Below are positions 3-24,272 of a DNA stretch of 32,160 nt, piece by piece. This DNA is from Okeania sp. KiyG1 (GTDB taxonomy: Bacteria > Cyanobacteriota > Cyanobacteriia > Cyanobacteriales > Microcoleaceae). The notes under the pieces are model-generated. The model ran no database searches. It saw only the letters and a program-made list of their open reading frames with translations, and was not told where the DNA came from. How positions within the stretch are numbered: position 1 is the stretch's first letter; each line of letters opens with the position of its first letter. A program made the translations under genes and the position numbers. Location: the NCBI RefSeq assembly GCF_014132355.1, contig NZ_BLZO01000164.1, forward strand, positions 1 through 32,160. The letters are read 5' to 3'.

Positions 3-137
3 GACCCTAACTTCAACAATTATCGTGCAGAGAATGGTGCAGAAACTCTTTATATTGGTGTGAGTGGTTCAAGTACATTTTATGACCCAAGTACTGATAC
101 TGTTGGTAGTGATGGTTTCTCCTGGGCAAGTGGGTAG
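3..137 (+). pseudogene. Upstream piece of giant PPC-repeat protein (frame-shifted end)
   Basis: Read in the frame that begins at base 3, the left edge encodes the end of a PPC-like unit (YRAENGAETLYIGVSGSS, then FYDPSTDTVGSDGFSW). It then hits TAG at 135-137. Later copies read FPWEVGSYDL at the same place. The DNA here has one extra base near 127 (gggcaag where the other copies have gggaag), which moves the reading frame and creates the stop. This is therefore the continuation of the gene to the right, not a separate gene, and its true start lies outside the window. The indel may be a real mutation or a sequence error. Confidence 0.75.
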
Positions 138-3100
138 TTATGATTTAACCATTGAAACTGTGGGTCGGACTTTAGGAGTAGATGAAACTAACGATATACT
201 AGCAGAAGCAATAGATACTGGTTTAAATTTAACTAACTCAGGAATCTTCAACTATTCAGGAGAAATAGGAGATAACACTAACCTATTACCAGAAAACGAT
301 GTAGATTTATTCAAGTTGGAGCTCGATATTGGAGAACAGGTGAAATTCTCTGAGAATATTGACCTGTTAGATGAGAATGGAAATCCCATCCCTAGTGGTC
401 GAGTTCAATTGTTTGATGCTAATGGTTTGTTCTTGTCTACAGAACAAGACCCAGAAAGTCCAGATTTTGATGACAGAATTTACCGTGCTGAAAATGAACC
501 GGAAACTCTATATATTGGTGTGAGTGGTTTTGGTACATTTTATGACCCAAGTACTGATACTGTTGGTAGTGATGGTTTCCCTTGGGAAGTGGGTAGTTAT
601 GATTTAACCATTGAAACTGTGGGTCGGACTTTAGGAGTAGATGAAACTAACGATATACTAGCAGAAGCAATAGATACTGGTTTAAATTTAACTAACTCAG
701 GAATCTTCAACTATTCAGGAGAAATAGGAGATAACACTAACCTATTACCAGAAAACGATGTAGATTTATTCAAGTTGGAGCTCGATATTGGAGAACAGGT
801 GAAATTCTCTGAGAATATTGACCTGTTAGATGAGAATGGAAATCCCATCCCTAGTGGTCGAGTTCAATTGTTTGATGCTAATGGTTTGTTCTTGTCTACA
901 GAACAAGACCCAGAAAGTCCAGATTTTGATGACAGAATTTACCGTGCTGAAAATGAACCGGAAACTCTATATATTGGTGTGAGTGGTTTTGGTACATTTT
1001 ATGACCCAAGTACTGATACTGTTGGTAGTGATGGTTTCCCTTGGGAAGTGGGTAGTTATGATTTAACCATTGAAACTGTGGGTCGGACTTTAGGAGTAGA
1101 TGAAACTAACGATATACTAGCAGAAGCAATAGATACTGGTTTAAATTTAACTAACTCAGGAATCTTCAACTATTCAGGAGAAATAGGAGATAACACTAAC
1201 CTATTACCAGAAAACGATGTAGATTTATTCAAGTTGGAGCTCGATATTGGAGAACAGGTGAAATTCTCTGAGAATATTGACCTGTTAGATGAGAATGGAA
1301 ATCCCATCCCTAGTGGTCGAGTTCAATTGTTTGATGCTAATGGTTTGTTCTTGTCTACAGAACAAGACCCAGAAAGTCCAGATTTTGATGACAGAATTTA
1401 CCGTGCTGAAAATGAACCGGAAACTCTATATATTGGTGTGAGTGGTTTTGGTACATTTTATGACCCAAGTACTGATACTGTTGGTAGTGATGGTTTCCCT
1501 TGGGAAGTGGGTAGTTATGATTTAACCATTGAAACTGTGGGTCGGACTTTAGGAGTAGATGAAACTAACGATATACTAGCAGAAGCAATAGATACTGGTT
1601 TAAATTTAACTAACTCAGGAATCTTCAACTATTCAGGAGAAATAGGAGATAACACTAACCTATTACCAGAAAACGATGTAGATTTATTCAAGTTGGAGCT
1701 CGATATTGGAGAACAGGTGAAATTCTCTGAGAATATTGACCTGTTAGATGAGAATGGAAATCCCATCCCTAGTGGTCGAGTTCAATTGTTTGATGCTAAT
1801 GGTTTGTTCTTGTCTACAGAACAAGACCCAGAAAGTCCAGATTTTGATGACAGAATTTACCGTGCTGAAAATGAACCGGAAACTCTATATATTGGTGTGA
1901 GTGGTTTTGGTACATTTTATGACCCAAGTACTGATACTGTTGGTAGTGATGGTTTCCCTTGGGAAGTGGGTAGTTATGATTTAACCATTGAAACTGTGGG
2001 TCGGACTTTAGGAGTAGATGAAACTAACGATATACTAGCAGAAGCAATAGATACTGGTTTAAATTTAACTAACTCAGGAATCTTCAACTATTCAGGAGAA
2101 ATAGGAGATAACACTAACCTATTACCAGAAAACGATGTAGATTTATTCAAGTTGGAGCTCGATATTGGAGAACAGGTGAAATTCTCTGAGAATATTGACC
2201 TGTTAGATGAGAATGGAAATCCCATCCCTAGTGGTCGAGTTCAATTGTTTGATGCTAATGGTTTGTTCTTGTCTACAGAACAAGACCCAGAAAGTCCAGA
2301 TTTTGATGACAGAATTTACCGTGCTGAAAATGAACCGGAAACTCTATATATTGGTGTGAGTGGTTTTGGTACATTTTATGACCCAAGTACTGATACTGTT
2401 GGTAGTGATGGTTTCCCTTGGGAAGTGGGTAGTTATGATTTAACCATTGAAACTGTGGGTCGGACTTTAGGAGTAGATGAAACTAACGATATACTAGCAG
2501 AAGCAATAGATACTGGTTTAAATTTAACTAACTCAGGAATCTTCAACTATTCAGGAGAAATAGGAGATAACACTAACCTATTACCAGAAAACGATGTAGA
2601 TTTATTCAAGTTGGAGCTCGATATTGGAGAACAGGTGAAATTCTCTGAGAATATTGACCTGTTAGATGAGAATGGAAATCCCATCCCTAGTGGTCGAGTT
2701 CAATTGTTTGATGCTAATGGTTTGTTCTTGTCTACAGAACAAGACCCAGAAAGTCCAGATTTTGATGACAGAATTTACCGTGCTGAAAATGAACCGGAAA
2801 CTCTATATATTGGTGTGAGTGGTTTTGGTACATTTTATGACCCAAGTACTGATACTGTTGGTAGTGATGGTTTCCCTTGGGAAGTGGGTAGTTATGATTT
2901 AACCATTGAAACTGTGGGTCGGACTTTAGGAGTAGATGAAACTAACGATATACTAGCAGAAGCAATAGATACTGGTTTAAATTTAACTAACTCAGGAATC
3001 TTCAACTATTCAGGAGAAATAGGAGATAACACTAACCTATTACCAGAAAACGATGTAGATTTATTCAAGTTGGAGCTCGATATTGGAGAACAGGTGAAAT

Positions 3101-6100
3101 TCTCCGAGAATATTGACCTGTTAGATGAAAATGGAAATCCCATCCCTAGTGGTCGAGTTCAATTGTTTGATGCTAATGGTTTGTTCTTGTCTACAGAACA
3201 AGACCCAGAAAGTCCAGATTTTGATGACAGAATTTACCGTGCTGAAAATGAACCGGAAACTCTATATATTGGTGTGAGTGGTTTTGGTACATTTTATGAC
3301 CCAAGTACTGATACTGTTGGTAGTGATGGTTTCCCTTGGGAAGTGGGTAGTTATGATTTAACCATTGAAACTGTGGGTCGGACTTTAGGAGTAGATGAAA
3401 CTAACGATATACTAGCAGAAGCAATAGATACTGGTTTAAATTTAACTAACTCAGGAATCTTCAACTATTCAGGAGAAATAGGAGATAACACTAACCTATT
3501 ACCAGAAAACGATGTAGATTTATTCAAGTTGGAGCTCGATATTGGAGAACAGGTGAAATTCTCCGAGAATATTGACCTGTTAGATGAAAATGGAAATCCC
3601 ATCCCTAGTGGTCGAGTTCAATTGTTTGATGCTAATGGTTTGTTCTTGTCTACAGAACAAGACCCAGAAAGTCCAGATTTTGATGACAGAATTTACCGTG
3701 CTGAAAATGAACCGGAAACTCTATATATTGGTGTGAGTGGTTTTGGTACATTTTATGACCCAAGTACTGATACTGTTGGTAGTGATGGTTTCCCTTGGGA
3801 AGTGGGTAGTTATGATTTAACCATTGAAACTGTGGGTCGGACTTTAGGAGTAGATGAAACTAACGATATACTAGCAGAAGCAATAGATACTGGTTTAAAT
3901 TTAACTAACTCAGGAATCTTCAACTATTCAGGAGAAATAGGAGATAACACTAACCTATTACCAGAAAACGATGTAGATTTATTCAAGTTGGAGCTCGATA
4001 TTGGAGAACAGGTGAAATTCTCTGAGAATATTGACCTGTTAGATGAGAATGGATTCCCCATTGCTCCAGGTCGAGTGCAGCTATTTAATGCTGATGGTAT
4101 GACATTGTTTGGAGAGTCAGACCCAGATGGTTCTAGTTTTGACAGAATTTACCGTGCTGAATTTGAACCGGAAACTCTATATATTGGTGTGAGTGGTATC
4201 AACACATTTTATGACCCCAGCACTGATACTGTTGGTAATGGTGGTTTCTCTAATGAAGTGGGAACTTATAATTTAACGATTGAAACTGTGGATCGGACTT
4301 TGGGTGCTGATGAAACTAACGATATTTTAGCTGAAGCAATAGATACGGGATTAAATTTAACTAACTCAGGAGTATTCAACTATTCAGGAGAAATAGGAGA
4401 TAATACCAACCTCTTACCAGAAAATGATGTAGATTTATTTAAGTTTGAGCTGGATATTGGGGAACAGGTGAAATTCTCTGAGGAAATTGAGCTGTTAGAT
4501 GAAAATGGCAATCCCATTGCTCCAGGTCGAGTGCAGCTATTTAATGCTGATGGTATGACATTGTTTGGAGAGTCAGACCCAGATGGTTCTATTTTTGACA
4601 GAATTTACCGTGCTGAATTTGAACCGGAAACTCTATATATTGGTGTGAGTGGTTCAATGACAAGTTATGACCCTAGCACTGATACTGTTGGTGATGGTGG
4701 TATGGTTGACCAAGTGGGTAGTTATGATTTAACTATTGAAACTAACGACCCTCCCACATTAGATTTAGACGGTAACGACAGCAGTGGAGCCACAGGTAAC
4801 GACTACACAACAACCTTCATAGAAGGAGGAAATGCAGTTGCCATAGGAGATAACGGTGACGTTGTGATTACAGACGTAGACGACACAAATATAGAGTCAG
4901 CCACAATCACATTAACCAACCGACCAGACGGAGATACAGTAGAAAGCTTATCAGTCAACAGCACACTACCAACTGGAATAACAGCCAGTAGCTATGACAG
5001 TGCCACAGGAACAATCACACTAACAGGTAGTGCTACACTAGCAGATTATCAGACTGCTATAGCTCAAATAGAATACAACAACAGCTCAACAAATCCCAAC
5101 ACCAACGCTCGTAGCGTCACAGTAGTGGTAAATGATGGGGATAGCGATAGCAACACAGCTACAACAACAATTAATATCATAGCCACAAACAGCGCTCCTG
5201 TAGTCAATAGCAACGCCATCACTGTAGATGAGGCCAGTCAAAATACAGGATTAGGACTAACAGCTCCCACGGACGCAGATGGAGACCCATTGACCATCAC
5301 CGTCACCGGACTGCCCACATTAGGCCAAGTTACCAAAGCAGACGGTACAGTAGTTAATAATGGGGACACATTAACATCAGAGGAACTACAAGGACTCCTC
5401 TACGATGCTCCTGCTGACTACGATGGAACAAAAGATCCTGGAGATTTCACCTATAATGTCGGCGACGGTACAACAAATGTATCTGGTAGCACAGACATAA
5501 CTATAACCACAGTCAACGAGCCGCCTGTAGCCGAAAACGACAGCGCTAGTACCAACAGAGGAGAAGCAGTCACCTTCAGCATTACCAGCAATGACTCAGA
5601 TACAGACGACACCCTAGACCTAACTACAGTAGACCTAGACCCTAGTACACCTGAACGAGACACTAGCATAACTGTACCAGGAGAAGGCGGCTATACAGTT
5701 GATGATGCTGGGAATGTTACCTTTACCCCTGAAGCTGGTTTCACTGGTGTTACTACTCCCATTACATACACTATTCAAGATAACTTGGGAGCAGTTTCCA
5801 ACGAAGCCAATATTTCCATAGAAGTCACTGAGATAGGAAATCTAGAAAACGATAGTACTTCCACACCACCCAACACCCCAGTCACATTCAGCATCAGTGA
5901 CAACGATGAAAATGTAGACCCCTCTACTATAGACCTAGACACAGAAACCCCAGGAATACAGAAAAACATCACAGTCCCAGGAGAAGGAACATTTGCCGTA
6001 GATGATGACGGGAACGTCACCTTTACCCCATTAGCAGGTTTTGAAGGAGAAGCATCCATTCCTTATACTGCTAATGACAACCAAGGCAACCCCTTAGAAC

Positions 6101-7194
6101 CCGCAGACATAACTGTAACTGTGGCTCCCATACCAGAATTAACAGATGACACAGCAAACACACCACCCAACACCCCAGTCACATTCAGCATCAGTGACAA
6201 CGATGAAAATGTAGACCCCTCTACTATAGACCTAGACACAGAAACCCCAGGAATACAGAAAAACATCACAGTCCCAGGAGAAGGAACATTTGCCGTAGAT
6301 GATGACGGGAACGTCACCTTTACCCCATTAGCAGGTTTTGAAGGAGAAGCATCCATTCCTTATACTGCTAATGACAACCAAGGCAACCCCTTAGAACCCG
6401 CAGACATAACTGTAACTGTGGCTCCCATACCAGAATTAACAGATGACACAGCAAACACACCACCCAACACCCCAGTCACATTCAGCATCAGTGACAACGA
6501 TGAAAATGTAGACCCCTCTACTATAGACCTAGACACAGAAACCCCAGGAATACAGAAAAACATCACAGTCCCAGGAGAAGGAACATTTGCCGTAGATGAT
6601 GACGGGAACGTCACCTTTACCCCATTAGCAGGTTTTGAAGGAGAAGCATCCATTCCTTATACTGCTAATGACAACCAAGGCAACCCCTTAGAACCCGCAG
6701 ACATAACTGTAACTGTGGCTCCCATACCAGAATTAACAGATGACACAGCAAACACACCACCCAACACCCCAGTCACATTCAGCATCAGTGACAACGATGA
6801 AAATGTAGACCCCTCTACTATAGACCTAGACACAGAAACCCCAGGAATACAGAAAAACATCACAGTCCCAGGAGAAGGAACATTTGCCGTAGATGATGAC
6901 GGGAACGTCACCTTTACCCCATTAGCAGGTTTTGAAGGAGAAGCATCCATTCCTTATACTGCTGATGACACTGAGGGCAACTCTTTAGAACCCGCAGACA
7001 TAACTGTAACTGTGGAACCCGTACCAGAATTAACAGATGACACAGCAAACACAGCTCCTAATACTCCAGTCACATTCAGCATCATCGAAAACGATGAAAA
7101 TGTAGACCCCTCTACTATAGACCTAGATCCAGAAACCCCAGGAATACAGAACAACTATCACAGTCCCAGGAGAAGGAACATTTGCCGTAGATGA
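64..7194 (+). CDS. Giant repeat protein, main piece: PPC-like repeats, cadherin/Ig-like domains, CshA-type fibril repeats
   Basis: This is the longest open piece of a very large, probably extracellular, repeat protein. From about residue 23 there are ten PPC-like units of 152-153 aa with the core PENDVDLFKLELDIGEQ and the closing strand GSYDLTIE. Next come a cadherin-like stretch (about 1560-1700), an Ig/tandem-95-like stretch with DADGDPLTI and TYTIQDN (about 1710-1920), and then the first CshA-type fibril units of 99 aa (NTPVTFSI, VPGEGTF, DDDGNVTFTP). The protein is very acidic and cysteine-free in what I read. The nominal GTG at 64 is not credible: its first 22 residues are repeat DNA read out of phase, and the true frame enters near 128. 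A +1 insertion near 7152 (cagaacaactatc, where sister units have cagaacactatc) ends this piece early at 7194. Adhesion, sheath or matrix function is inferred from domain type. No LPXTG, PEP-CTERM or RTX signal is seen. Confidence 0.75.
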   Translation: MVQVHFMTQVLILLVVMVSPGQVGSYDLTIETVGRTLGVDETNDILAEAIDTGLNLTNSGIFNYSGEIGDNTNLLPENDVDLFKLELDIGEQVKFSENIDLLDENGNPIPSGRVQLFDANGLFLSTEQDPESPDFDDRIYRAENEPETLYIGVSGFGTFYDPSTDTVGSDGFPWEVGSYDLTIETVGRTLGVDETNDILAEAIDTGLNLTNSGIFNYSGEIGDNTNLLPENDVDLFKLELDIGEQVKFSENIDLLDENGNPIPSGRVQLFDANGLFLSTEQDPESPDFDDRIYRAENEPETLYIGVSGFGTFYDPSTDTVGSDGFPWEVGSYDLTIETVGRTLGVDETNDILAEAIDTGLNLTNSGIFNYSGEIGDNTNLLPENDVDLFKLELDIGEQVKFSENIDLLDENGNPIPSGRVQLFDANGLFLSTEQDPESPDFDDRIYRAENEPETLYIGVSGFGTFYDPSTDTVGSDGFPWEVGSYDLTIETVGRTLGVDETNDILAEAIDTGLNLTNSGIFNYSGEIGDNTNLLPENDVDLFKLELDIGEQVKFSENIDLLDENGNPIPSGRVQLFDANGLFLSTEQDPESPDFDDRIYRAENEPETLYIGVSGFGTFYDPSTDTVGSDGFPWEVGSYDLTIETVGRTLGVDETNDILAEAIDTGLNLTNSGIFNYSGEIGDNTNLLPENDVDLFKLELDIGEQVKFSENIDLLDENGNPIPSGRVQLFDANGLFLSTEQDPESPDFDDRIYRAENEPETLYIGVSGFGTFYDPSTDTVGSDGFPWEVGSYDLTIETVGRTLGVDETNDILAEAIDTGLNLTNSGIFNYSGEIGDNTNLLPENDVDLFKLELDIGEQVKFSENIDLLDENGNPIPSGRVQLFDANGLFLSTEQDPESPDFDDRIYRAENEPETLYIGVSGFGTFYDPSTDTVGSDGFPWEVGSYDLTIETVGRTLGVDETNDILAEAIDTGLNLTNSGIFNYSGEIGDNTNLLPENDVDLFKLELDIGEQVKFSENIDLLDENGNPIPSGRVQLFDANGLFLSTEQDPESPDFDDRIYRAENEPETLYIGVSGFGTFYDPSTDTVGSDGFPWEVGSYDLTIETVGRTLGVDETNDILAEAIDTGLNLTNSGIFNYSGEIGDNTNLLPENDVDLFKLELDIGEQVKFSENIDLLDENGNPIPSGRVQLFDANGLFLSTEQDPESPDFDDRIYRAENEPETLYIGVSGFGTFYDPSTDTVGSDGFPWEVGSYDLTIETVGRTLGVDETNDILAEAIDTGLNLTNSGIFNYSGEIGDNTNLLPENDVDLFKLELDIGEQVKFSENIDLLDENGFPIAPGRVQLFNADGMTLFGESDPDGSSFDRIYRAEFEPETLYIGVSGINTFYDPSTDTVGNGGFSNEVGTYNLTIETVDRTLGADETNDILAEAIDTGLNLTNSGVFNYSGEIGDNTNLLPENDVDLFKFELDIGEQVKFSEEIELLDENGNPIAPGRVQLFNADGMTLFGESDPDGSIFDRIYRAEFEPETLYIGVSGSMTSYDPSTDTVGDGGMVDQVGSYDLTIETNDPPTLDLDGNDSSGATGNDYTTTFIEGGNAVAIGDNGDVVITDVDDTNIESATITLTNRPDGDTVESLSVNSTLPTGITASSYDSATGTITLTGSATLADYQTAIAQIEYNNSSTNPNTNARSVTVVVNDGDSDSNTATTTINIIATNSAPVVNSNAITVDEASQNTGLGLTAPTDADGDPLTITVTGLPTLGQVTKADGTVVNNGDTLTSEELQGLLYDAPADYDGTKDPGDFTYNVGDGTTNVSGSTDITITTVNEPPVAENDSASTNRGEAVTFSITSNDSDTDDTLDLTTVDLDPSTPERDTSITVPGEGGYTVDDAGNVTFTPEAGFTGVTTPITYTIQDNLGAVSNEANISIEVTEIGNLENDSTSTPPNTPVTFSISDNDENVDPSTIDLDTETPGIQKNITVPGEGTFAVDDDGNVTFTPLAGFEGEASIPYTANDNQGNPLEPADITVTVAPIPELTDDTANTPPNTPVTFSISDNDENVDPSTIDLDTETPGIQKNITVPGEGTFAVDDDGNVTFTPLAGFEGEASIPYTANDNQGNPLEPADITVTVAPIPELTDDTANTPPNTPVTFSISDNDENVDPSTIDLDTETPGIQKNITVPGEGTFAVDDDGNVTFTPLAGFEGEASIPYTANDNQGNPLEPADITVTVAPIPELTDDTANTPPNTPVTFSISDNDENVDPSTIDLDTETPGIQKNITVPGEGTFAVDDDGNVTFTPLAGFEGEASIPYTADDTEGNSLEPADITVTVEPVPELTDDTANTAPNTPVTFSIIENDENVDPSTIDLDPETPGIQNNYHSPRRRNICRR
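130..4713 (+). repeat. Ten tandem PPC-like coding units, 459-bp period
   Basis: Units begin at 130, 589, 1048, 1507, 1966, 2425, 2884, 3343, 3802 and 4258. The first eight are 459 bp and, by eye, identical except for two synonymous changes shared by the units at 2884 and 3343 (TCT to TCC, GAG to GAA). Unit nine diverges in its second half after about 4050 and is 456 bp. Unit ten is clearly older and also 456 bp. Near-identical DNA points to recent amplification or gene conversion. The copy number in an assembly of such a region is uncertain. Confidence 0.95.
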
Positions 7195-9994
7195 TGACGG
7201 GAACCTCACCTTTACCCCATTAGCAGGTTTTGAAGGAGAAGCATCCATTCCTTATACTGCTGATGACAACCAAGGCAACCCTTTAGAACCCGCAGACATA
7301 ACTGTAACTGTGGCTCCCATACCAGAATTAACAGATGACACAGCAAACACAGCTCCTAACACCCCAGTCACATTCAGCATCAGCGACAACGATGAAAATG
7401 TAGATGTCACCACCATCGACCTGGACCCAGAAACCCCAGGAATACAGAAAAACATCACAGTCCCAGGAGAAGGAACATTTGCCGTAGATGATGACGGGAA
7501 CGTCACCTTTACCCCAGTGGAAGGTTTTGAGGGTGAGTCATCTATTCCTTATACTGCTGATGACACCTCTGGCAACTCTTTAGAACCCGCAGACATAACT
7601 GTAACTGTGGCTGCCATACCAGAATTAACAGATGACACAGCAAACACACCACCCAACACCCCAGTCACATTCAATATCAGCGACAACGATGAAAATGTAG
7701 ATGTCACCACCATCGACCTGGACCCAGAAACCCCAGGAATACAGAAAAACATCACAGTCCCAGGAGAAAGTACATTTGCCGTAGATGATGACGGGAACGT
7801 CACCTTTACCCCAGTGGAAGGTTTTGAGGGTGAGTCATCTATTCCTTATACTGCTGATGACACCTCTGGCAACTCTTTAGAACCCGCAGACATAACTGTA
7901 ACTGTGGAACCCATACCAGAATTAACAGATGACACAGCAAACACAGCTCCTAATACCCCAGTCACATTCAATATCAGCGACAACGATGAAAATTTAGACC
8001 CCTCTACTATAGACCTAGACCCAGAAACCCCAGGAATACAGAACACTATCACAGTCCCAGGAGAAGGAACATTTGCCGTAGATGATGACGGGAACCTCAC
8101 CTTTACCCCATTAGCAGGTTTTGAAGGAGAAGCATCCATTCCTTATACTGCTAATGACAACCAAGGCAACCCCTTAGAACCCGCAGACATAACTGTAACT
8201 GTGGAACCCGTACCAGAATTAACAGATGACACAGCAAACACAGCTCCTAATACTCCAGTCACATTCAGCATCATCGAAAACGATGAAAATGTAGACCCCT
8301 CTACTATAGACCTAGACCCAGAAACCCCAGGAATACAGAAAAACATCACAGTACCAGGAGAAGGAACATTTGCCGTAGATGATGACGGGAACCTCACCTT
8401 TACCCCATTAGCAGGTTTTGAAGGAGAAGCATCCATTCCTTATACTGCTGATGACAACCAAGGCAACCCCTTAGAACCCGCAGACATAACTGTAACTGTA
8501 GCTCCCATACCAGAATTAACAGATGACACAGCAAACACAGCTCCTAATACTCCAGTCACATTCAGCATCATCGAAAACGATGAAAACATCGACCCAGCAA
8601 CGATAGACCTAGACCCAGAAACCCCAGGAATACAGAACACTATCACAGTCCCAGGAGAAGGAACATTTGCCGTAGATGATGACGGGAACCTCACCTTTAC
8701 CCCATTAGCAGGTTTTGAGGGTGAGTCATCCATTCCTTATGCTGCTGAGGACAATGAGGGCAACTCTTTAGAACCCGCAGACATAACTGTAAATGTAGCT
8801 CCCATACCAGAATTAACAGATGACACAGCAAACACAGCTCCTAATACTCCAGTCACATTCAGCATCATCGAAAACGATGAAAACATCGACCCAGCAACGA
8901 TAGACCTAGACCCAGAAACCCCAGGAATACAGAACACTATCACAGTACCAGGAGAAGGAACATTTACAGTAGATGATGACGGGAACGTAACCTTTACCCC
9001 AGTAGATGGTTTTGAGGGTGAGTCATCCATTCCTTATGCTGCTGAGGACAATGAGGGCAACTCTTTAGAACCCGCAGACATAACTGTAAATGTAGCTCCC
9101 ATACCAGAATTAACAGATGACACAGCAAACACAGCTCCTAATACTCCAGTCACATTCAGCATCATCGAAAACGATGAAAACATCGACCCAGCAACGATAG
9201 ACCTAGACCCAGAAACCCCAGGAATACAGAACACTATCACAGTACCAGGAGAAGGAACATTTACAGTAGATGATGACGGGAACGTAACCTTTACCCCAGT
9301 AGATGGTTTTGAGGGTGAGTCATCCATTCCTTATGCTGCTGAGGACAATGAGGGCAACTCTTTAGAACCCGCAGACATAACTGTAAATGTAGCTCCCATA
9401 CCAGAATTAACAGATGACACAGCAAACACAGCTCCTAATACTCCAGTCACATTCAGCATCAGCGACAACGATGAAAATGTAGATGTCACCACCATCGACC
9501 TGGACATAGACACCCCAGGAATACAGAAAACAATCACAGTCCCAGGAGAAGGTACATTTGCCGTAGATGATGACGGGAACGTAACCTTTACCCCAGTAGA
9601 TGGTTTTGAAGGAGAAGCATCCATTCCTTATACTGCTGATGACACTGAGGGCAACTCTTTAGAACCCGCAGACATAACTGTAAATGTAGCTCCTGTACCA
9701 GAATTAACAGATGACACAGCAACCACCCCTCCCAACACCCCAGTCACATTCAGCATCAGCGACAACGATGAAAATGTAGATGTCACCACCATAGACCTAG
9801 ACCCAGAAACCCCAGGAATACAAAAAAACATCACAGTCCCAGGAGAAGGAACATTTGCCGTAGATGATGACGGGAACGTCACCTTTACCCCAGTAGATGG
9901 TTTTGAAGGAGAAGCATCTATTCCTTATGGTGCTGATGACACTGAGGGCAACTCTTTAGATCCCGCAGACATAACTGTAACTGTGGAACCCATA
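5836..9994 (+). repeat. Fourteen tandem CshA-type fibril units, 297-bp period
   Basis: Units of 99 aa start near 5836, 6133, 6430, 6727, 7024, 7322, 7619, 7916, 8213, 8510, 8807, 9104, 9401 and 9698. Boundaries are set on the codons for PELTDDTAN. The unit at 7024 is 298 bp and contains the frame-breaking extra base. The units from 5836 to about 6957 are essentially identical at the DNA level, and those at 8807 and 9104 also match each other, so expansion happened more than once. The pattern of N-D-E-N, T-V-P-G-E-G-T-F and G-N-V-T-F-T-P fits the CshA fibril repeat family, which builds long surface fibrils in streptococci. The family assignment is from memory of the consensus. Confidence 0.85.
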
Positions 9995-10534
9995 GTGGAG
10001 AGTAGCGAACCAGTTCGGTTTGATTTTGATGGAGATGGCAAAGCTGATATTCTGTGGCGAGACCAAGAAACCGGAAAAAATCGGATGTGGTTGATGGATG
10101 GTACCACCAGGAGGGACCGTGGTGCAATTCCTACCTGGAACAATGATTTTGAAGTGGCAGGAGTAGCAGATTTTGATGGAGATGGCAAAGCTGATATTCT
10201 GTGGCGAGACCAAGAAACCGGAAAAAATCGGATGTGGTTGATGGATGGTACCACCAGGAGCGACCGTGGTGCAATTCCTACCTGGAGCACTGATTTTGAA
10301 GTGGCAGGAGTAGCAGACTTTGATGGAGATGGCAAAGCTGATATTCTGTGGCGAGACCAAGAAACCGGAAAAAATCGGATGTGGTTGATGGATGGTACCA
10401 ACAGGAGCGACCGTGGTGCAATTCCTACCTGGAGCACTGATTTTGAAGTGGCAGGAGTAGCAGACTTTGATGGAGATGGCAAAGCTGATATTCTGTGGCG
10501 AGACCAAGAAACCGGAAAAATCGGATGTGGTTGA
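7310..10534 (+). CDS. Giant repeat protein, second piece: CshA-type fibril repeats plus FG-GAP/VCBS-like repeats
   Basis: This continues the same protein after the 1-bp insertion near 7152. The frame is open from just after that point, so the GTG at 7310 is only the first possible start and not a real one. It carries nine CshA-type units of 99 aa, then a short linker (about residues 896-905), then FG-GAP/VCBS-like units with the calcium-loop sequence DFDGDGKADILWRD. The reading frame breaks at an A-run: 10516-10520 has five A where all sister units have six, after which it runs into TGA at 10532-10534. A 1074-aa protein starting in the middle of a repeat without a secretion signal is unlikely to be functional alone. 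Confidence 0.75.
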   Translation: MAPIPELTDDTANTAPNTPVTFSISDNDENVDVTTIDLDPETPGIQKNITVPGEGTFAVDDDGNVTFTPVEGFEGESSIPYTADDTSGNSLEPADITVTVAAIPELTDDTANTPPNTPVTFNISDNDENVDVTTIDLDPETPGIQKNITVPGESTFAVDDDGNVTFTPVEGFEGESSIPYTADDTSGNSLEPADITVTVEPIPELTDDTANTAPNTPVTFNISDNDENLDPSTIDLDPETPGIQNTITVPGEGTFAVDDDGNLTFTPLAGFEGEASIPYTANDNQGNPLEPADITVTVEPVPELTDDTANTAPNTPVTFSIIENDENVDPSTIDLDPETPGIQKNITVPGEGTFAVDDDGNLTFTPLAGFEGEASIPYTADDNQGNPLEPADITVTVAPIPELTDDTANTAPNTPVTFSIIENDENIDPATIDLDPETPGIQNTITVPGEGTFAVDDDGNLTFTPLAGFEGESSIPYAAEDNEGNSLEPADITVNVAPIPELTDDTANTAPNTPVTFSIIENDENIDPATIDLDPETPGIQNTITVPGEGTFTVDDDGNVTFTPVDGFEGESSIPYAAEDNEGNSLEPADITVNVAPIPELTDDTANTAPNTPVTFSIIENDENIDPATIDLDPETPGIQNTITVPGEGTFTVDDDGNVTFTPVDGFEGESSIPYAAEDNEGNSLEPADITVNVAPIPELTDDTANTAPNTPVTFSISDNDENVDVTTIDLDIDTPGIQKTITVPGEGTFAVDDDGNVTFTPVDGFEGEASIPYTADDTEGNSLEPADITVNVAPVPELTDDTATTPPNTPVTFSISDNDENVDVTTIDLDPETPGIQKNITVPGEGTFAVDDDGNVTFTPVDGFEGEASIPYGADDTEGNSLDPADITVTVEPIVESSEPVRFDFDGDGKADILWRDQETGKNRMWLMDGTTRRDRGAIPTWNNDFEVAGVADFDGDGKADILWRDQETGKNRMWLMDGTTRSDRGAIPTWSTDFEVAGVADFDGDGKADILWRDQETGKNRMWLMDGTNRSDRGAIPTWSTDFEVAGVADFDGDGKADILWRDQETGKIGCG

Positions 10535-11352: not shown

Positions 11353-12285
11353 TTAATTTTTAGACAATAGTTTTTTTATTCCCAGATCGATATTAATTTT
11401 AGGCTCAAAGCCCAATTCATTTTTAACTAAACTAGCATCAGACCATGAATGTCTAATATCTCCTACTCTAGGTGGATGAAACTCTGGCTGGATTTCATAA
11501 CCTATTTGAATGGCGATCGCCTCCAACAATTTTAATAAACTCAAACCTTTGCCAGTACCAACATTAAAAGCTCTATGGTTAGCTATTATTTCAGAAGAAG
11601 CAGTAGAAGCCAAAAAATTAGCCTTAGCTACATCTTCTACATAGATAAAATCCCTCGTCTGAAGTCCATCTCCATAAACTTTGGGTCTTTGCTGGCGATG
11701 ATAACAATCTAAAAATTTGGGAATAACCGCAGCATAGTCAGAATCAGATTTTTGCCCTGGACCGTATACATTAAAATATCTCAAACAAACTGTTTCTAGT
11801 CCATAGGATTGATAAAAACTTTCGGCCCAAGCTTCAGCAGTTAACTTGCTGGCAGCATAGGGAGATTTTGGCATTGGCAAATCAGTTTCTTTTAGTGGGG
11901 GTTGATTGCGATCGCCATAAACAGCACAACTAGAAGATATAACTACCCTAGAAACATCTGACTTAAGAGCAGCGGACAATACATTTAGGGTTCCCTCAGC
12001 ATTAATCTCATAAGTAAGGCGGGGATTATTTACTGATTTTGGCACAGAAACTAAGGCCGCTAGATGAAATATGGAATCTACTCCCTCCATAGCTACAACT
12101 AAGGCATCGAAATTCCTGACATCTGATTCAATTACCTCAATTTCTGACTGGATGGATGCCAAATTTTTCCAGCTACCAGAAGAAAGGTTATCGTAAACCT
12201 TGGCATCTACTCCATTGTTCAACAGAAACCGAACAAGATGAGAACCAATAAATCCTTCTCCACCTGTAACTAGCACTTTTTTCAT
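11353..12285 (-). CDS. NAD-dependent UDP-hexose/UDP-N-acetylhexosamine 4-epimerase (extended SDR)
   Basis: This 310-aa protein has the complete extended short-chain dehydrogenase fold. It shows the NAD-binding GGEGFIG (8-14), HLAA (74-77), the catalytic SSSC (117-120) and Y-A-A-S-K (Y143, K147), then YFNVYGPGQ and the substrate-binding RDFIYVEDVA. The late GDIRHSWSDAS stretch resembles the WbpP/TviC group, which epimerises UDP-GlcNAc to UDP-GalNAc; plain UDP-glucose 4-epimerase activity cannot be excluded. The ATG overlaps the stop of the upstream glycan synthase gene (ATGA, 12282-12285), so the two are translated from one message. It would supply UDP-GalNAc or UDP-Gal to that synthase. Length is normal and no key residue is missing. 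Confidence 0.88.
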   Translation of the reverse strand: MKKVLVTGGEGFIGSHLVRFLLNNGVDAKVYDNLSSGSWKNLASIQSEIEVIESDVRNFDALVVAMEGVDSIFHLAALVSVPKSVNNPRLTYEINAEGTLNVLSAALKSDVSRVVISSSCAVYGDRNQPPLKETDLPMPKSPYAASKLTAEAWAESFYQSYGLETVCLRYFNVYGPGQKSDSDYAAVIPKFLDCYHRQQRPKVYGDGLQTRDFIYVEDVAKANFLASTASSEIIANHRAFNVGTGKGLSLLKLLEAIAIQIGYEIQPEFHPPRVGDIRHSWSDASLVKNELGFEPKINIDLGIKKLLSKN

Positions 12286-14543
12286 AAGTTTTGGGTAACA
12301 ATCTTTTGCCTACAGACCTCAAGCTTCCTGGGGTTATTAGGATCGCTTCGCTTAACTATCCATACATCGCTTAACCCTAAACGATCTAAAGAGCGATTGA
12401 TTACAGTAATAGTGTTGTTATCTTGTTCCTTTTCATAAAGCAAAGAAGTATTTTTTCCATGTATCCGTCGAGAATATGTCACCTTGTTAATATGATGAAA
12501 AGAGCAAACCTCGCTTAACTTCATGTACATATCATAATCGACCGCATTAAACAAATCTTCAGCAAATCCTTCAGTCTTCATCCAGTCCCTCTTTCTAAAC
12601 ATTCGGAAATGATGAATGATCATATTAATCATCAGTTTCTCCCGGGAAAATTCAGGCCAGTTGTATTCTGGTTTAACATAATTTCCATACTTATCAATTC
12701 TTTCACAACAGCTATAGACGCAACCAACATCATACTTGTCTAAATATTTAACCATAGTCTCCACTGCATCTGGTTTGAGCATATCATCAGAATCAAGTTG
12801 ACCAATGTACATACCCCTACACATTTTTACTGCAGTATTAGAAGCTTTCCCTATCCCACCATTAGGTTGAGAAACCCACCTAACGCGAGGATTTTCTGAG
12901 TAGTTTTCCTCCAAAACTTCCAGGGTTCGATCCGTGGAACCATCATCACAAATACAAACTTCTAAATCTGTGTAGGTTTGATTGAGAACGCTATCAACAG
13001 TATGCTTAATAAACTGCTCAACATTATAAGCAGGAATGTAAATCGAAACTTTAGGCACTTCATAAATTTCACCTAGTCGATATTTGCGATACCAACCAGC
13101 AGGACATTTTTGTTCTAATAATTTTTGAGTAATTTGTTTTCCAGTTATGCGGTCAGTTTCATTACTACCACCTGGTGGTTCTTGATGTAAATCAATTGCG
13201 GTTAATACTGGAATGAAATAATAGCCAGCATTATAAACTCGATACCCAAATTCAATATCTTCGCAACCCCATTCTTGAAAATCTTCATCATACCAACCTA
13301 CTTTGTGAATAATATTTTTTGAATAAGCAACGTGACCGGAAGCAAATGCTCGAAAAGGATACTTTTCTTTCTTTAAGTTATCAGTTTGTTCATATATTCT
13401 AAAGCGCCAGTCTATGGTAGCTTTATTTTTAATATCGCTCTTAAACATGACGTTTTCAGTTACAATATCTTCTAATCCTAAAGCAATATTAATATCCTCA
13501 AAAATTTCGTCATCTGTAATTGCATCTGTATTTACAAATCTCCGATGAGCCATTAAAACAGCTTTGTCAGTTACATGAAGATATTTCATCAATTCTTCAA
13601 CAAACTGGGGTTCTGGAATCAAGTCACAATCTAAAAGAATTAAATGTTCGTGTTTAGAGGTGCGTATTCCCAGGTTACGAACTGCACATAAACGATACCC
13701 TTGGTCTTGCTGTCGGACATGAATTAATTCTAAATATTTCTCATATTTTAAAATTACTTCTTCCACACCATCTGTACTACCATCATCAGCTACAATTACT
13801 TCTATTAAATGCTTGGGATAAGTTTGATGAGTAATGGCAGCCAAAGTCTTAGCCAAAATTGCCTTGCGATTATAGGTAGGAATAATCATCGAAACAGGAA
13901 GTTTATAAGGTTTTTTACTCTCCACAAATTCCTTAACTTTCTCTTCTATAAAAGAATAGTCGTTTCCTTCTCCCACAATGGAAGGAATTACAAAATTATC
14001 GGGAATACCTTCTACTTTTTTAACTGTTTTCGTGTTTTCTTGCTCTTTTAAAGCTTTTTGGAGGTTTGCTTCAATTTCAGGTAACTTTTGATTGAGCTTG
14101 AGGACACGGTTATAGAGCTTAATTTCTTCTTCTAAATCTCCCTTTTCTTTTAATAGGTTTCCCAGTTTTCCGTAAACTTTCCATAAATCTTGCTTTAGTT
14201 CTAATGCTCTTTGATAACAGGAAATAGCTCCTTCTATTTTTCCTTCTAAAACTAGCTTATCTCCCAAGTTATAACAAGTTTCAACTGGATTATCTTTTAA
14301 ATTTTTTACCAATAATTTATATTCTTGAGCTTCATCTACCCGGTCCTGTTTTTCCAGCAAATCAGCTAACTTTTGATAAGTATCTATATTATGTGGTTGA
14401 ATTTCAGCAGCGTAAAAATAAGAAGCAATCGCCCGGTCTAGATTTCCTTGTCGTATCAGAGTATTTCCTAAATTATAAGCAGACCAAAAAAAGTGAGGAT
14501 TAATATTAATTGCTTGGCAATAACAAGCAACAGCATCATCCAA
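12282..14543 (-). CDS. TPR-fused bifunctional glycosyltransferase, class II hyaluronan/chondroitin synthase-like (two GT2 domains)
   Basis: Residues 1-170 are TPR units. Two GT-A domains of family GT2 follow. The first has IPTYNR, DDGSTD (253-258), the metal-binding DCD (305-307) and EWGCEDIEFGYR (424-435), then HQEPPG (453-458). The second has IPAYN, DLEVCICDDGSTD (526-538), NGGI, GQLDSDD (581-587), NWPEFSREKL, HHFRMF and NAVDYDM (666-672). These motifs, in this order, match Pasteurella multocida hyaluronan/chondroitin synthase and E. coli KfoC, in which one site adds a hexosamine and the other a uronic acid. The C-terminal membrane-association part of PmHAS is absent; the protein ends at 753 aa. 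The nominal start is TTG at 14543-14541, but the frame is open up to the stop at 14751-14753 and encodes more TPR, so the real start probably lies in the upstream TPR gene. The epimerase gene follows with a 4-nt overlap. Exact sugar specificity is not readable. Confidence 0.82.
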   Translation of the reverse strand: MDDAVACYCQAININPHFFWSAYNLGNTLIRQGNLDRAIASYFYAAEIQPHNIDTYQKLADLLEKQDRVDEAQEYKLLVKNLKDNPVETCYNLGDKLVLEGKIEGAISCYQRALELKQDLWKVYGKLGNLLKEKGDLEEEIKLYNRVLKLNQKLPEIEANLQKALKEQENTKTVKKVEGIPDNFVIPSIVGEGNDYSFIEEKVKEFVESKKPYKLPVSMIIPTYNRKAILAKTLAAITHQTYPKHLIEVIVADDGSTDGVEEVILKYEKYLELIHVRQQDQGYRLCAVRNLGIRTSKHEHLILLDCDLIPEPQFVEELMKYLHVTDKAVLMAHRRFVNTDAITDDEIFEDINIALGLEDIVTENVMFKSDIKNKATIDWRFRIYEQTDNLKKEKYPFRAFASGHVAYSKNIIHKVGWYDEDFQEWGCEDIEFGYRVYNAGYYFIPVLTAIDLHQEPPGGSNETDRITGKQITQKLLEQKCPAGWYRKYRLGEIYEVPKVSIYIPAYNVEQFIKHTVDSVLNQTYTDLEVCICDDGSTDRTLEVLEENYSENPRVRWVSQPNGGIGKASNTAVKMCRGMYIGQLDSDDMLKPDAVETMVKYLDKYDVGCVYSCCERIDKYGNYVKPEYNWPEFSREKLMINMIIHHFRMFRKRDWMKTEGFAEDLFNAVDYDMYMKLSEVCSFHHINKVTYSRRIHGKNTSLLYEKEQDNNTITVINRSLDRLGLSDVWIVKRSDPNNPRKLEVCRQKIVTQNL

Positions 14544-14827
14544 TTTTCCTTGCTTTTGCAGTACATCTCCTAAGCTATGATGAACTTGCCAAAAATTATG
14601 TTGCAGTTCTAGTGCTTGGCGATAATTATTAGCAGATTCTTCTAGTTTACCTTCTTTTAATAACTGGTCTCCTAAATCACGATAATCTTGAGCAGAATTA
14701 AGTTTTATTTCTTGCTCTTTTTGATTCTTTTGCTGAGTTTTTTTCTGGAACTAATTTAGCTAAATTTTGTTGAATATCAAGGGGATTAGATTGAATTTGT
14801 ATCGCTTTTTGATAAGCAGCAATTGCC
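14544..14827 (-). pseudogene. Frame-broken TPR segment joining the two TPR genes
   Basis: On the minus strand, the frame that follows the stop at 14828-14830 reads NEAIAAYQKAIQIQSNP, a TPR helix, and runs to a stop at 14698-14700. The frame of the glycosyltransferase gene is open from 14750 down and reads SAQDYRDLGDQLLKEGK, EESANNYRQALELQ and VHHSLGDVLQKQGK, again TPR. So TPR coding continues without a gap through three frames. The switches fall near T-runs at 14834-14840 and 14738-14744. Either two real indels split one long TPR-synthase gene, or these are homopolymer sequencing errors. Confidence 0.65.
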
Positions 14828-16015
14828 TCATTCTTTTTTTCCTATATTTTCCAGGATTTCACCTAACTTTTGATGATAATCCCATCTATGAGGAGAAATT
14901 TTAATTGCATAACGGTAACTAACAATTGCTCCTTCAAAATTTTGCTGCTTAACTAAAATATTAGCCAAAAAGATATGACCTTCAACTTCTTTGGAGTTAC
15001 TGGCGATCGCATTTTTACAAAAAACAATTGCCTGGGAAAAATTACCTTTTCTTTCCCAAACTTTTGCTAGTTGTAAGTTAACCCGATAATCATCTGGAAT
15101 AATTTCAAGTATCTTGTAGTAATTTTGAATATTATCTGGTTCTTTTTCTATTTTATCGCGATATAAATTAACCAATTTTTCCAATTTAATTCTTTTTTGA
15201 TAATGTAGCGCATCTGCTAATTTTGTATGAATTCCGACTAACTCTGGCTGTAAATTAATTGCTTTCAGATAAGCATTGATAGCTTCTTCCCAATCTTTCA
15301 ACTTAACTAAAACATCTCCCAATTTATAATAACCCCAAGGAAAATCAGGATTCAATTCAACAGCCTGATGATAAGCACGAACTGCTTCTTCCCAATTTTC
15401 TAACTTAACTAATACATCCCCTAAATTATTATAAGACCAACAAAAATCAGACTTTAATTCTATCGATTTATTATAAGCACTAACAGCTTCTTCCCAATTT
15501 TCTAACTTAACTAATACATCTCCCAATCTATAATAACCCCAATGAAAATCAGGACTCAACTCAATAGCCCGACGATAAGCACTAACAGCTTCTTCCCACT
15601 TCTCTAACTTAACTAATACATCCCCCAAATTATTATAAGACCAACAAAAATCAGACTTTAATTCTATCGATCTATTATAAGCAGCAACTGCCTCTTCTAA
15701 CTCCTCTTTTTCCTGCAATAAATCACCTAATTTATGATGCACTTCCCATAATTCCGGCTGCATTTCAACAGCTCTTCTGTAAACCCTTATTGCCTCTTCT
15801 TTCTCTCCTTTTTCTACCAAAGCATCACCTAAAAAGTGGTAAGCATCTGCAAAATTTTGTTCTCTGTCAATTGCTTGACGATAAGCAGCGATCGCCTCTT
15901 TCCATTCTCCCTTTTTTGCTAAAATTTTACCTAAGTTGAAATAAGTTTTTGCCTGGTTAACATTTTTTGTTTGTTGTTGCGTGGGCGAGACAAAATTTGT
16001 TGGAGTTTCCTGCAT
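14828..16015 (-). CDS. Tetratricopeptide repeat protein (N-terminal part of, or partner to, the glycan synthase)
   Basis: The 395-aa protein is built almost wholly of 34-aa TPR units (for example YNNLGDVLVKLEKWEEAV and YHFLGDALVEKGEKEEAI) after a polar head of about 20 residues. Two alternating unit types (DFCWSYNNLGD and DFHWGYYRLGD) show that pairs of units were duplicated. TPRs form superhelical scaffolds for protein contacts; here they would position or regulate the synthase. The last unit stops at GKKE, where the next frame continues with a matching TPR, so the stop at 14828 may be an artefact and the original gene may have run to 12282. ATG at 16015 is the only plausible start. A clear ribosome binding site is not seen. 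Confidence 0.75.
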   Translation of the reverse strand: MQETPTNFVSPTQQQTKNVNQAKTYFNLGKILAKKGEWKEAIAAYRQAIDREQNFADAYHFLGDALVEKGEKEEAIRVYRRAVEMQPELWEVHHKLGDLLQEKEELEEAVAAYNRSIELKSDFCWSYNNLGDVLVKLEKWEEAVSAYRRAIELSPDFHWGYYRLGDVLVKLENWEEAVSAYNKSIELKSDFCWSYNNLGDVLVKLENWEEAVRAYHQAVELNPDFPWGYYKLGDVLVKLKDWEEAINAYLKAINLQPELVGIHTKLADALHYQKRIKLEKLVNLYRDKIEKEPDNIQNYYKILEIIPDDYRVNLQLAKVWERKGNFSQAIVFCKNAIASNSKEVEGHIFLANILVKQQNFEGAIVSYRYAIKISPHRWDYHQKLGEILENIGKKE

Positions 16016-22535: not shown

Positions 22536-24005
22536 TTACTGATTTTTATCAAATTCTTTTTCTACTTGTGGAGCTGGTAATATATCTTGAATTTTTTCTA
22601 CCAATTTAGGAAACCCGGATGGAAATAACTTAGGATAAATAATCAGCAAAATAACTCCAAGAATAGCAGAACCTAAGTAGTAAATAATTTGCCCATTCTG
22701 CATCCAAGTCAAGGAATCTAGAAATCCAAATTTCTTGGGTTTTTCTATTTCTGGTTGAGGATAATTTCCTGTGACTTTACCTTGAATCTTACTCTCATCA
22801 CCGAATACGTTACCCACAACATTTCCATCTTTATTTTCTATTGTCCGACTTTGGTCATTGACAAATTTTTCAGCTTCTAAAAATCCAAGTTTCTTGGGTT
22901 TGTGTTTTTCTGGTTGAGGATAATTTGCTGTGACTTTACCTTGAATCTTACTCTCATCACCGAATACATTACCAACAACATTTCCATCTTTATTTTCTAT
23001 TTTCCGACTTTGGTCATTGACATTTTTTTGAGTCATGGTTTTATTCCCAACAATATTATTACTGTCTATAAAAAAATCTCTACCACCAATGATATAAAGA
23101 TCATTTAGACGATGACTAGCTTGTAAAAATTCTCTACTCAAGTCTCTGTCTATTACATCATCAATTACTATTACATCATCAATTAAACTTCGGATATCAA
23201 CTTCATGATATGGATAATTATCGCACTTAGTTTTTTGTCTACCATTACTCTTCCATTCATTTAATTTATCAAATTTGTAGAAGTGAGGATTCTGACTATT
23301 ATTACAAGCTGCACAATTACAAGGAATTAATTTATTATATTTGAGTCGATTATTGTAGGAACCATGAATTTTATCCAACTCGTAAGTCACAATAGTCATT
23401 AAATCCCGTTTTTGTTGCCCAGAAATTCTAACTTTTATTTCTCTCTTGCCATAATATTCAATTACTTCTGCTCTGGTTTGATTTTTCTTGAGAATAACTC
23501 CACTTTTCCAAACATATTTTTGCTCCTCAATATCTTTGTGCATCACCACAATAAACTGAGTAATAATTCCTTTGGGCATAAATTCGTAAGTGTAACGTAA
23601 TATCAAATTATTATTTTCATCCCAGTCATATTCTGGTTGAGCTTCTGTTAGGAGTTGAGGGGCAATATAGGTTTGAGAAGTATCAGGAATTTTATAGCAA
23701 AGTTTAAATTTAATCATTAATTGCAGTAACTCATCGTGCATATTGGCATATTTATCTTCATGCCAAATATTAGTCAAATCATCTTTGGTAAATTTACCAA
23801 AATTATCATAAACTTGCGGATTATCTAGAGCTTTGTAGACTGCTGCTGTTCCCCATTCTGGTTTTAGAATAACTGTTTTATTTAACAGTGGGTCATCTTG
23901 AAAATGAAGAAAAACTCCTAAGTCATGTAAGTAACCACTTAATTGTAATTTATCCTCTCGTTTCTTAAAGCCATTTTCTTCACAAATAGATAAATATTCT
24001 GTCAA
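22536..24005 (-). CDS. Roco protein, COR domain and C-terminal membrane part (separated by an in-frame stop)
   Basis: The start at 24005 is a TTG inside the gene; the same frame is open back to the TAA at 24123-24125 and reads RTDIKHYISNLPHIG there. The beginning is a COR (C-terminal of Roc) domain: EYLSICEENGFKKRE, then GYLHDLGVFLHFQDDP, VILKPEWGTAAVYKALD and a four-Cys/His patch (CNCAACNNSQNPH). Two copies of a unit of about 54 aa follow (NDQSR-x-IENKDGNVVGNV, FGDESKIQGKVT, NYPQPE). A membrane helix (IIYYLGSAILGVILLIIYP) comes near the C-terminus. COR dimerises Roc GTPases. With the LRR-Roc piece upstream this was one gene of about 984 codons, so this fragment alone is probably not made. 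Confidence 0.72.
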   Translation of the reverse strand: MTEYLSICEENGFKKREDKLQLSGYLHDLGVFLHFQDDPLLNKTVILKPEWGTAAVYKALDNPQVYDNFGKFTKDDLTNIWHEDKYANMHDELLQLMIKFKLCYKIPDTSQTYIAPQLLTEAQPEYDWDENNNLILRYTYEFMPKGIITQFIVVMHKDIEEQKYVWKSGVILKKNQTRAEVIEYYGKREIKVRISGQQKRDLMTIVTYELDKIHGSYNNRLKYNKLIPCNCAACNNSQNPHFYKFDKLNEWKSNGRQKTKCDNYPYHEVDIRSLIDDVIVIDDVIDRDLSREFLQASHRLNDLYIIGGRDFFIDSNNIVGNKTMTQKNVNDQSRKIENKDGNVVGNVFGDESKIQGKVTANYPQPEKHKPKKLGFLEAEKFVNDQSRTIENKDGNVVGNVFGDESKIQGKVTGNYPQPEIEKPKKFGFLDSLTWMQNGQIIYYLGSAILGVILLIIYPKLFPSGFPKLVEKIQDILPAPQVEKEFDKNQ

Positions 24006-24272
24006 ACTAATATAGTTACGACCATCTGTTTCTAATACTTCACGGACTTTTTTCCATGTCTTAGGAAGAGGGCTACCAATATGAGGTAAATTACTGATGT
24101 AATGTTTGATATCTGTTCTAATTTATTCTAATCCTCGGTTAGTTGCAAGATTGGTGGCTAATATTTCTTTGATATTAGAAAATTGACCTTGCAATGCTCT
24201 TTGATTAATTTCCCGTTTGCGTTCTTGTTTCTCATTTTTGATAATTAATAAAGGGCTATTATCGCTCAACAA

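Follow-up and report, generated by a model that had tools for sequence, protein, structure and literature searches.

A 2023 review states that class II hyaluronan synthases had until then been found in Gram-negative bacteria only, in Pasteurella multocida type A and Avibacterium allies, and defines class I synthases by a single GT2 in an integral membrane protein (PMC10939387). The closest described relative of the enzyme reported here is KfoC (K4CP), the chondroitin synthase of Escherichia coli K4, whose GT2 modules A1 and A2 carry the N-acetylhexosamine (HexNAc) and glucuronic acid (GlcA) transferase sites, respectively. Enzymes of this family are characterized as non-processive peripheral membrane proteins that transfer GlcA and HexNAc in alternation. 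A 2020 paper states that sulfotransferases acting on glycosaminoglycans (GAGs) were unknown in prokaryotes, yet it describes Pontiella exopolymers that are sulfated and GAG-like and names three candidate genes there (PMC7356697); Pontiella is prior art for such polymers in bacteria (PMC13125312, PMC7356697). In Shark Bay mats, hydrolysates of cyanobacterial extracellular polymeric substances are described as giving unidentified peaks that overlap chondroitin sulfate and fucoidan standards (PMC12555021). Here, a KfoC-type polymerase gene is described from the marine filamentous cyanobacterium Okeania sp. KiyG1, in a 32,160-nucleotide stretch of contig NZ_BLZO01000164.1 (the window). Judged by its sequence and a structural model, the product genuinely belongs to the class II GAG-synthase family, as a TPR-associated variant, and we assign a probability of about 0.68 to the reading that it is a TPR-tethered KfoC/PmHAS/PmCS-family polymerase giving a GAG-type [HexNAc-GlcA]n backbone. 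None of the papers listed by a literature search deals with a KfoC-type polymerase in cyanobacteria, most subscription papers lying outside its reach.

The three open reading frames (ORFs) of the first-pass annotation, namely those of the TPR part, the glycosyltransferase (GT) part, and an epimerase, were found where it had placed them (Table 1), and all nine motifs that it had listed for class II hyaluronan/chondroitin synthases were present in the translation of the GT ORF. This ORF was 48% identical to KfoC (47.7% over 560 residues by BLAST), and a phmmer search of the PDB aligned its residues 167 to 727 with residues 39 to 605 of the KfoC chains 2z87/2z86 (E = 1.2e-167, 562 bits), the next GT2-type chain being 3bcv (E = 2.4e-19). 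Two GT2 modules in A1-A2 order distinguish it from the single-GT2 class I synthases and, together with a DxD motif in both modules and the residues R268, D311, and R313, correspond to a class II GAG synthase. With the KfoC numbering fixed uniquely from the K4CP residues named in PMC2889854, the window polymerase was found to keep R268, D311, R313, the DCD at 239-241, and the DSD at 519-521; in the 33 family rows, R268/D311/R313 were kept in 32, the A1 DxD in all 33, and the A2 DxD in 32. Identity to KfoC was 43% (109/251) in A1 and 59% (134/229) in A2, which makes the GlcA site the better supported of the two.

An AlphaFold model of the 753-residue ORF, built from an alignment of its product with 25 relatives (26 rows), had a pLDDT of 84.4 and a pTM of 0.75. 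The top hits of a structure search with this model were the six chains of KfoC (E = 8.1e-63 to 4.4e-59, TM score of 0.83 to 0.85 by target), followed by a single GT2 at E = 2.7e-15, and heparosan synthase 2 was matched at E = 2.1e-14 with a TM score of about 0.3 by target and a root mean square deviation (rmsd) of over 20. The predicted fold therefore groups the window polymerase with KfoC, not with heparosan synthase or single GT2s, and in the structure modeling, which had been proposed as a check on both active sites, 2z86/2z87 stood far above all else. Sequence, fold, and site residues thus agree with the earlier assignment to the class II GAG synthase (KfoC/PmHAS/PmCS) family.

A tree of 29 rows (the window, KfoC, and 27 of 33 extracted loci) held family members only, with no outgroup and no inferred root; it left out loci L042, L048, L051, L052, L053, and L058, which were partial or distant, and the later finds L115 and L121. 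The window fell in the starred set of eight (97/92), which contained two Okeania, Waterburya, Pleurocapsa, MS008, Thiomargarita nelsonii, an Acidimicrobiales metagenome-assembled genome (MAG), and a deltaproteobacterial MAG, and KfoC and other Pseudomonadota lay on the opposite side. L032, L040, and L030 were long branches, so their placement is unsure. The L115 polymerase was counted with the window clade because it is 64% identical to the window's and has the genus code of Waterburya and Pleurocapsa. Three alphaproteobacterial proteins (L051, L052, and L053, the last cut by the contig start) had an A2-like half followed by a GT1, with no second GT2 detected.

The clade appears to be sparse. 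With the own genome counted, searches that scored only three candidates per genome, and may therefore have missed copies, detected the polymerase gene in 2 of the 386 genomes from the phylum and in 5 of the 389 from the order. One of the five other Okeania had it, as did 3 of the 27 genomes, that of Waterburya among them, from the family to which Waterburya belongs. A scan of named genomes gave a total of 74 loci, 28 of which aligned over at least 490 residues at 43 to 92% identity. A viral origin was considered and set aside: scans of viral contigs confirmed no match with the whole protein and gave six weak matches (22 to 31% identity) with A1, without a full-length relative.

Eight related loci (SIO3B5, MS008, Thiomargarita, Pleurocapsa, the deltaproteobacterial MAG, the Acidimicrobiales MAG, Waterburya, and L115) were compared with the window; the flanks were short for SIO3B5 and the deltaproteobacterial MAG. 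In seven of these nine polymerases, TPRs were fused (window, SIO3B5, MS008, and Thiomargarita) or encoded by a separate gene directly upstream (Waterburya, L115, and Pleurocapsa); TPRs were not detected in the deltaproteobacterial and Acidimicrobiales polymerases. The Waterburya, L115, and Pleurocapsa polymerases had an extra N-terminal GT2, that of Thiomargarita had four GT2 stretches, and that of Pleurocapsa CCALA 161 (L029:6759-10754) ended in a C-terminal GT1 domain. In the reading favored here, one polypeptide with two GT2 sites would most likely alternate between them, GlcA being added by A2 and HexNAc by A1 at the non-reducing end of the growing chain, giving the [HexNAc-GlcA]n backbone. 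The N-terminal TPR superhelix, which in the Waterburya/Pleurocapsa group is the product of the separate upstream gene, probably docks the polymerase to a partner or acceptor.

The gene is a single 1242-residue TPR-GT2-GT2 frame (L021:3973-7701) in Okeania sp. SIO3B5, a sibling whose polymerase protein is 91% identical to that of the window, and the window TPR ORF showed 91% amino acid identity to its N-terminus over 395 codons, with the start region in common. Because the sibling carries the TPR and GT parts as one gene, the comparison identifies the TPR ORF as the N-terminus of a polymerase gene running from 16015 down to 12282; the TTG at 14543 marks a start set mechanically by ORF calling and is not evidence of a genuine one. 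The N-terminal TPR scaffold previously described is accordingly present, but in the window two frame changes, beside 7-nucleotide A/T runs, interrupt the gene between the scaffold and the GT part. A programmed frameshift was not favored as the cause of the split, since the sibling copy is intact. Against the sibling, the ratio of nonsynonymous to synonymous substitution (dN/dS) was 0.178 over the whole GT ORF and 0.144 over its catalytic part, while the TPR ORF gave 0.31 and a nearby Nudix gene 0.141; the catalytic half has accordingly been under constraint. The window copy might be a decaying pseudogene, or the breaks might be sequencing or assembly indels in A-runs, an explanation that is compatible with other readings and that we regard as tentative, at somewhat below even odds. 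Consistent with it, both frame changes adjoin the A/T runs, the neighboring LRR-Roc-COR gene has in-frame stops, and genome completeness is 92%, versus 96 to 99% in five other Okeania; the catalytic half, on the other hand, is fully open at a dN/dS of 0.14, a value that averages both lineages and is compatible with recent decay. With either cause, the window copy would say little about the chemistry of the strain.

This interruption is one of several findings that weigh against the proposed [HexNAc-GlcA]n polymerase. In addition, the window polymerase has Ala in place of KfoC Ser334 and WGCED in place of WGGED, and the whole-chain rmsd of the model to KfoC was 8.0 to 9.5 Å, so the predicted domain arrangement differs from that of the crystal. 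Site A1 drifts in the clade, as indicated by NDGS for DDGS in the sibling SIO3B5 and by the absence of several A1 residues (D311, R313, DDGS, and WGGED) from the Pleurocapsa CCALA 161 polymerase, whose A1 site could be dead. Furthermore, exporter and precursor genes were not linked at the loci in tblastn searches. KpsT, KpsM, a KpsE-like protein, and ugd as queries matched seven to nine of nine capsule control loci (eight or nine for KpsT, KpsM, and ugd), and neither the window nor the eight related loci matched KpsM, the KpsE-like protein, or ugd. The sole match among the clade and window loci was the MS008 ABC ATPase (28% identical, E = 5.8e-7). Domain searches and tblastn likewise found no kps-type export genes in the window, which is without the linked ABC export and ugd genes of a Kps-type (group 2) capsule. 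Among 33 clustered sources, a UDP-glucose dehydrogenase-like gene was found in 15, all on the proteobacterial side (one member Pfam-checked); 11 sources, MS008 among them, had an ABC ATPase, and 8 had a permease (one member each Pfam-checked). A UDP-glucose 6-dehydrogenase-like gene does lie elsewhere in the genome of KiyG1 (446 bits to TIGR03026, cut-off 189.8; best match TuaD at 531.8 bits, under its cut-off of 700), and UDP-GlcA is therefore expected.

The lack of linked capsule export genes would also fit an enzyme that makes a polymer or oligosaccharide from other sugars with the same two-site logic, or one that builds a glycan on a TPR-recruited protein acceptor instead of a free polysaccharide. 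A TPR fusion is also known from O-GlcNAc transferases, and the TPRs of the window were matched by those of these enzymes; extra GT2, GT1, or methyltransferase domains occur in or beside relatives. The high A2 identity and the kept donor-site residues point instead to GlcA and a HexNAc, and we consider such an activity unlikely.

The first-pass annotation had compared the polymerase and the epimerase-like gene that it overlaps with the KfoC-KfoA pair of E. coli K4. The 4-nucleotide overlap was confirmed. The epimerase scored 214.7 bits against the galE model (cut-off 262.3), had 6dnt (E = 2.1e-65) and WbpP (E = 8.9e-53) as PDB neighbors, and shared 31% identity with a GalE-type epimerase from a KfoC-type locus of E. 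coli. A Ser in the window epimerase aligned with a Ser of that enzyme, at a position that we take to be the substrate gatekeeper. The overlap, the aligned Ser, and the WbpP match would suit a chondroitin-making pair in which the epimerase provides the polymerase with UDP-GalNAc; the distribution of the epimerase argues against such a pair, which we consider quite unlikely. At E = 1e-60 the epimerase was found in one of six Okeania, KiyG1 itself, and the other five, including the polymerase-bearing SIO3B5, were negative; in SIO3B5 the polymerase gene has a stop codon of its own, and the 298 nucleotides of contig beyond it contain no epimerase start. Searches by tblastn (E = 1e-4) with the window epimerase and the E. 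coli GalE-type epimerase gave nothing in the available flanks of the eight related loci and a match at four of nine capsule-type control loci, some to other SDR genes. On this distribution, the overlapping epimerase is a local addition whose pairing with the polymerase is not conserved and is not supported as a functional signature.

The residue at KfoC position 334 bears on the same question. Across the 33 rows, KfoC included, it was Ser in 17, Ala in 8, Val in 7, and Cys in 1, with Ala in both Okeania polymerases and in L055 (Bisgaard Taxon 45). GalE-type 4-epimerases, sorted by tail motif, lay close to 5 of the 16 loci with Ser334 and, outside Okeania, to none of the 14 loci with another residue (p = 0.045; related loci, several flanks short). 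Ser334 as a marker of N-acetylgalactosamine (GalNAc) was chosen here and is weak, not an established rule; by this marker the window polymerase looks hyaluronan-like rather than chondroitin-like, and since it has Ala, not Ser, the earlier preference for GalNAc (chondroitin) over N-acetylglucosamine (GlcNAc; hyaluronan-like) is not favored. KfoC itself is described as accepting UDP-Gal where UDP-GalNAc is lacking and, to a degree, UDP-GlcNAc (PMC7764085), a laxity that leaves room for the chondroitin pair, so a single residue cannot settle the donor.

Sulfotransferase domains lay near the polymerases of several relatives. In Waterburya, a PF03567 gene followed the polymerase after 40 nucleotides; in Thiomargarita, a PF03567 domain, about 4.3 kb away, ended a gene starting 2.2 kb downstream; in L115, a TPR-PF13469 gene lay 2.5 kb away on the opposite strand; and in the deltaproteobacterial MAG, the KfoC-type two-GT2 polymerase (L030:3572-6269) was fused to Sulfotransfer_3 (PF13469, E = 1.9e-14), the contig ending inside the domain. 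A weak match was found in Pleurocapsa (PF00685, E = 2.8e-4, under the cut-off), and the SIO3B5, MS008, and Acidimicrobiales MAG loci were negative for the two sulfotransferase profiles built for this comparison. In total, five of eight loci of the window clade had a sulfotransferase, versus one of the 23 loci opposite them in the tree (Fisher p = 0.0018), or four of eight without the Pleurocapsa match (p = 0.0098); the half-polymerase loci L051, L052, and L053 were left out of these counts, L051 having a nearby PF03567 gene. The association is not taken as proof because the comparison was framed after the first cases had been seen, the eight loci are not independent but related, the genomes abound in sulfotransferases and differ in how many they hold (27 family rows in Waterburya and 35 in KiyG1, some perhaps one gene twice), and flanks were short for SIO3B5 (298 nucleotides on one side), L030 (0 nucleotides), and, on the other side, L035, L039, L042, and L057. 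That the clade represents a natural bacterial pathway to sulfated GAG-like polymers, in which a chain made by a TPR-scaffolded KfoC-type polymerase would be sulfated by a linked or fused sulfotransferase, is a speculative and somewhat unlikely extension.

The window has a sulfotransferase gene of its own (27019-27918), whose product is nearest to 3rnl and then to heparan sulfate 3-O-sulfotransferases/NDST. It was rejected as a partner of the polymerase because it is core to Okeania, being present in all six genomes (92 to 94% in the other five, polymerase-bearing or not), and because the chance of a sulfotransferase within 13 kb is about 0.08. A gene upstream of an E. coli kfoC-like gene (L121:5501-7255), annotated "sulfotransferase family protein," was not used as evidence; it had no Pfam match at E = 0.01, no sulfotransferase-profile match at E = 0.5, and one weak NCBIfam match to another family. 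In a Caulobacterales MAG, a capsule-type locus (L049:849-9722) combined a nucleotide-sugar dehydrogenase-like gene, an ABC ATPase, a permease (by eye), a TPR-PF13469 sulfotransferase gene 69 nucleotides upstream of the polymerase, and the KfoC-like polymerase itself, and is a candidate sulfated capsule locus.

Table 1. Positions in the window of the polymerase gene, its catalytic sites, and the overlapping epimerase gene
Feature	Position	Strand	Basis
Short GalE/WbpP-type UDP-hexose(NAc) 4-epimerase-like protein, 310 aa	11353..12285	-	PF01370, 6.5e-62
Overlap of polymerase stop and epimerase start, 4 nt, ATGA	12282..12285	-	Sequence
Polymerase part with TPR remainder and two GT2 modules; 753 aa counted from the TTG listed, 822 aa as open frame	12282..14543	-	Pfam GT2, 5.2e-63, two stretches
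GT2 module A2 (KfoC: GlcA transferase site), with HHFRMF and NAVDYDM motifs	12363..13055	-	Alignment to KfoC
A2 DSD motif	12786-12794	-	Coordinates computed from residue numbers
GT2 module A1 (KfoC: hexosamine transferase site)	13104..13895	-	Alignment to KfoC
A1 WGCED motif	13257-13271	-	Coordinates computed from residue numbers
Ala replacing KfoC Ser334	13341-13343	-	Residue mapping; coordinates computed from residue numbers
A1 DCD motif	13623-13631	-	Coordinates computed from residue numbers
Region of two frame changes beside two 7-nt A/T runs	14738..14840	-	Sibling SIO3B5 copy intact
N-terminal TPR part of polymerase gene, 395-aa ORF	14828..16015	-	Pfam TPR_11, 6.3e-74

Elsewhere in the window, the LRR-Roc-COR gene (22536-25490) is split into two ORFs by in-frame stops and is an apparent pseudogene or a read error. 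Two long adjacent ORFs of CshA/Big_9/cadherin repeats (64-10534), the second ending in FG-GAP repeats, lie 115 nucleotides apart in different frames; the repeat series continues between them, so they are perhaps one surface protein gene.

A close TPR-fused relative of the class II synthases in filamentous cyanobacteria, outside any capsule cluster seen, widens the range of settings in which GAG-type backbones may arise and gives GAG synthesis additional polymerases to draw on. Should the association with sulfotransferases hold, bacterial production of sulfated GAGs by a dedicated polymerase and sulfotransferase becomes testable, and such a pathway would be a bacterial counterpart, outside animals, of chondroitin/hyaluronan sulfate assembly. 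What is new here is the cyanobacterial, TPR-associated setting of a class II GAG-synthase family member; sulfated GAG-like polymers are possible in its relatives.

Among known systems, KfoC (PDB 2z86/2z87) shares with the window polymerase the A1-A2 order, 48% identity, both DxD motifs, R268/D311/R313, and the fold; unlike KfoC, the window polymerase has a long TPR N-terminus, Ala for Ser334, no linked kps-type genes, and no conserved epimerase. Of the N-termini of ten KfoC-clade proteins, four had TPR matches, all below threshold (E = 0.03 to 0.05), and the other six had none. The PmHAS type is represented by L055, which we take to be the PmHAS orthologue; it is 44% identical to the window polymerase and also has Ala at position 334, but it continues for about 300 residues after A2 (967-residue frame, match ending at 664), whereas the window protein ends soon after A2. 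In PmHAS, residues about 704 to 972 are described as the likely membrane anchor (PMC10939387). Proteobacterial kps-type loci with KfoC-like genes share the polymerase core and differ in their ABC export and ugd genes, for which the window clade gave no match except the MS008 ATPase. The cyanobacterial sulfated polysaccharide systems synechan and xss and the Pontiella system resemble the sulfotransferase-associated loci of the clade in combining glycosyltransferases with sulfotransferases and differ from them in that the accessible text of the reports ascribes neither synechan/xss nor the Pontiella polymers to a KfoC-type two-site polymerase (PMC13125312, PMC7356697).

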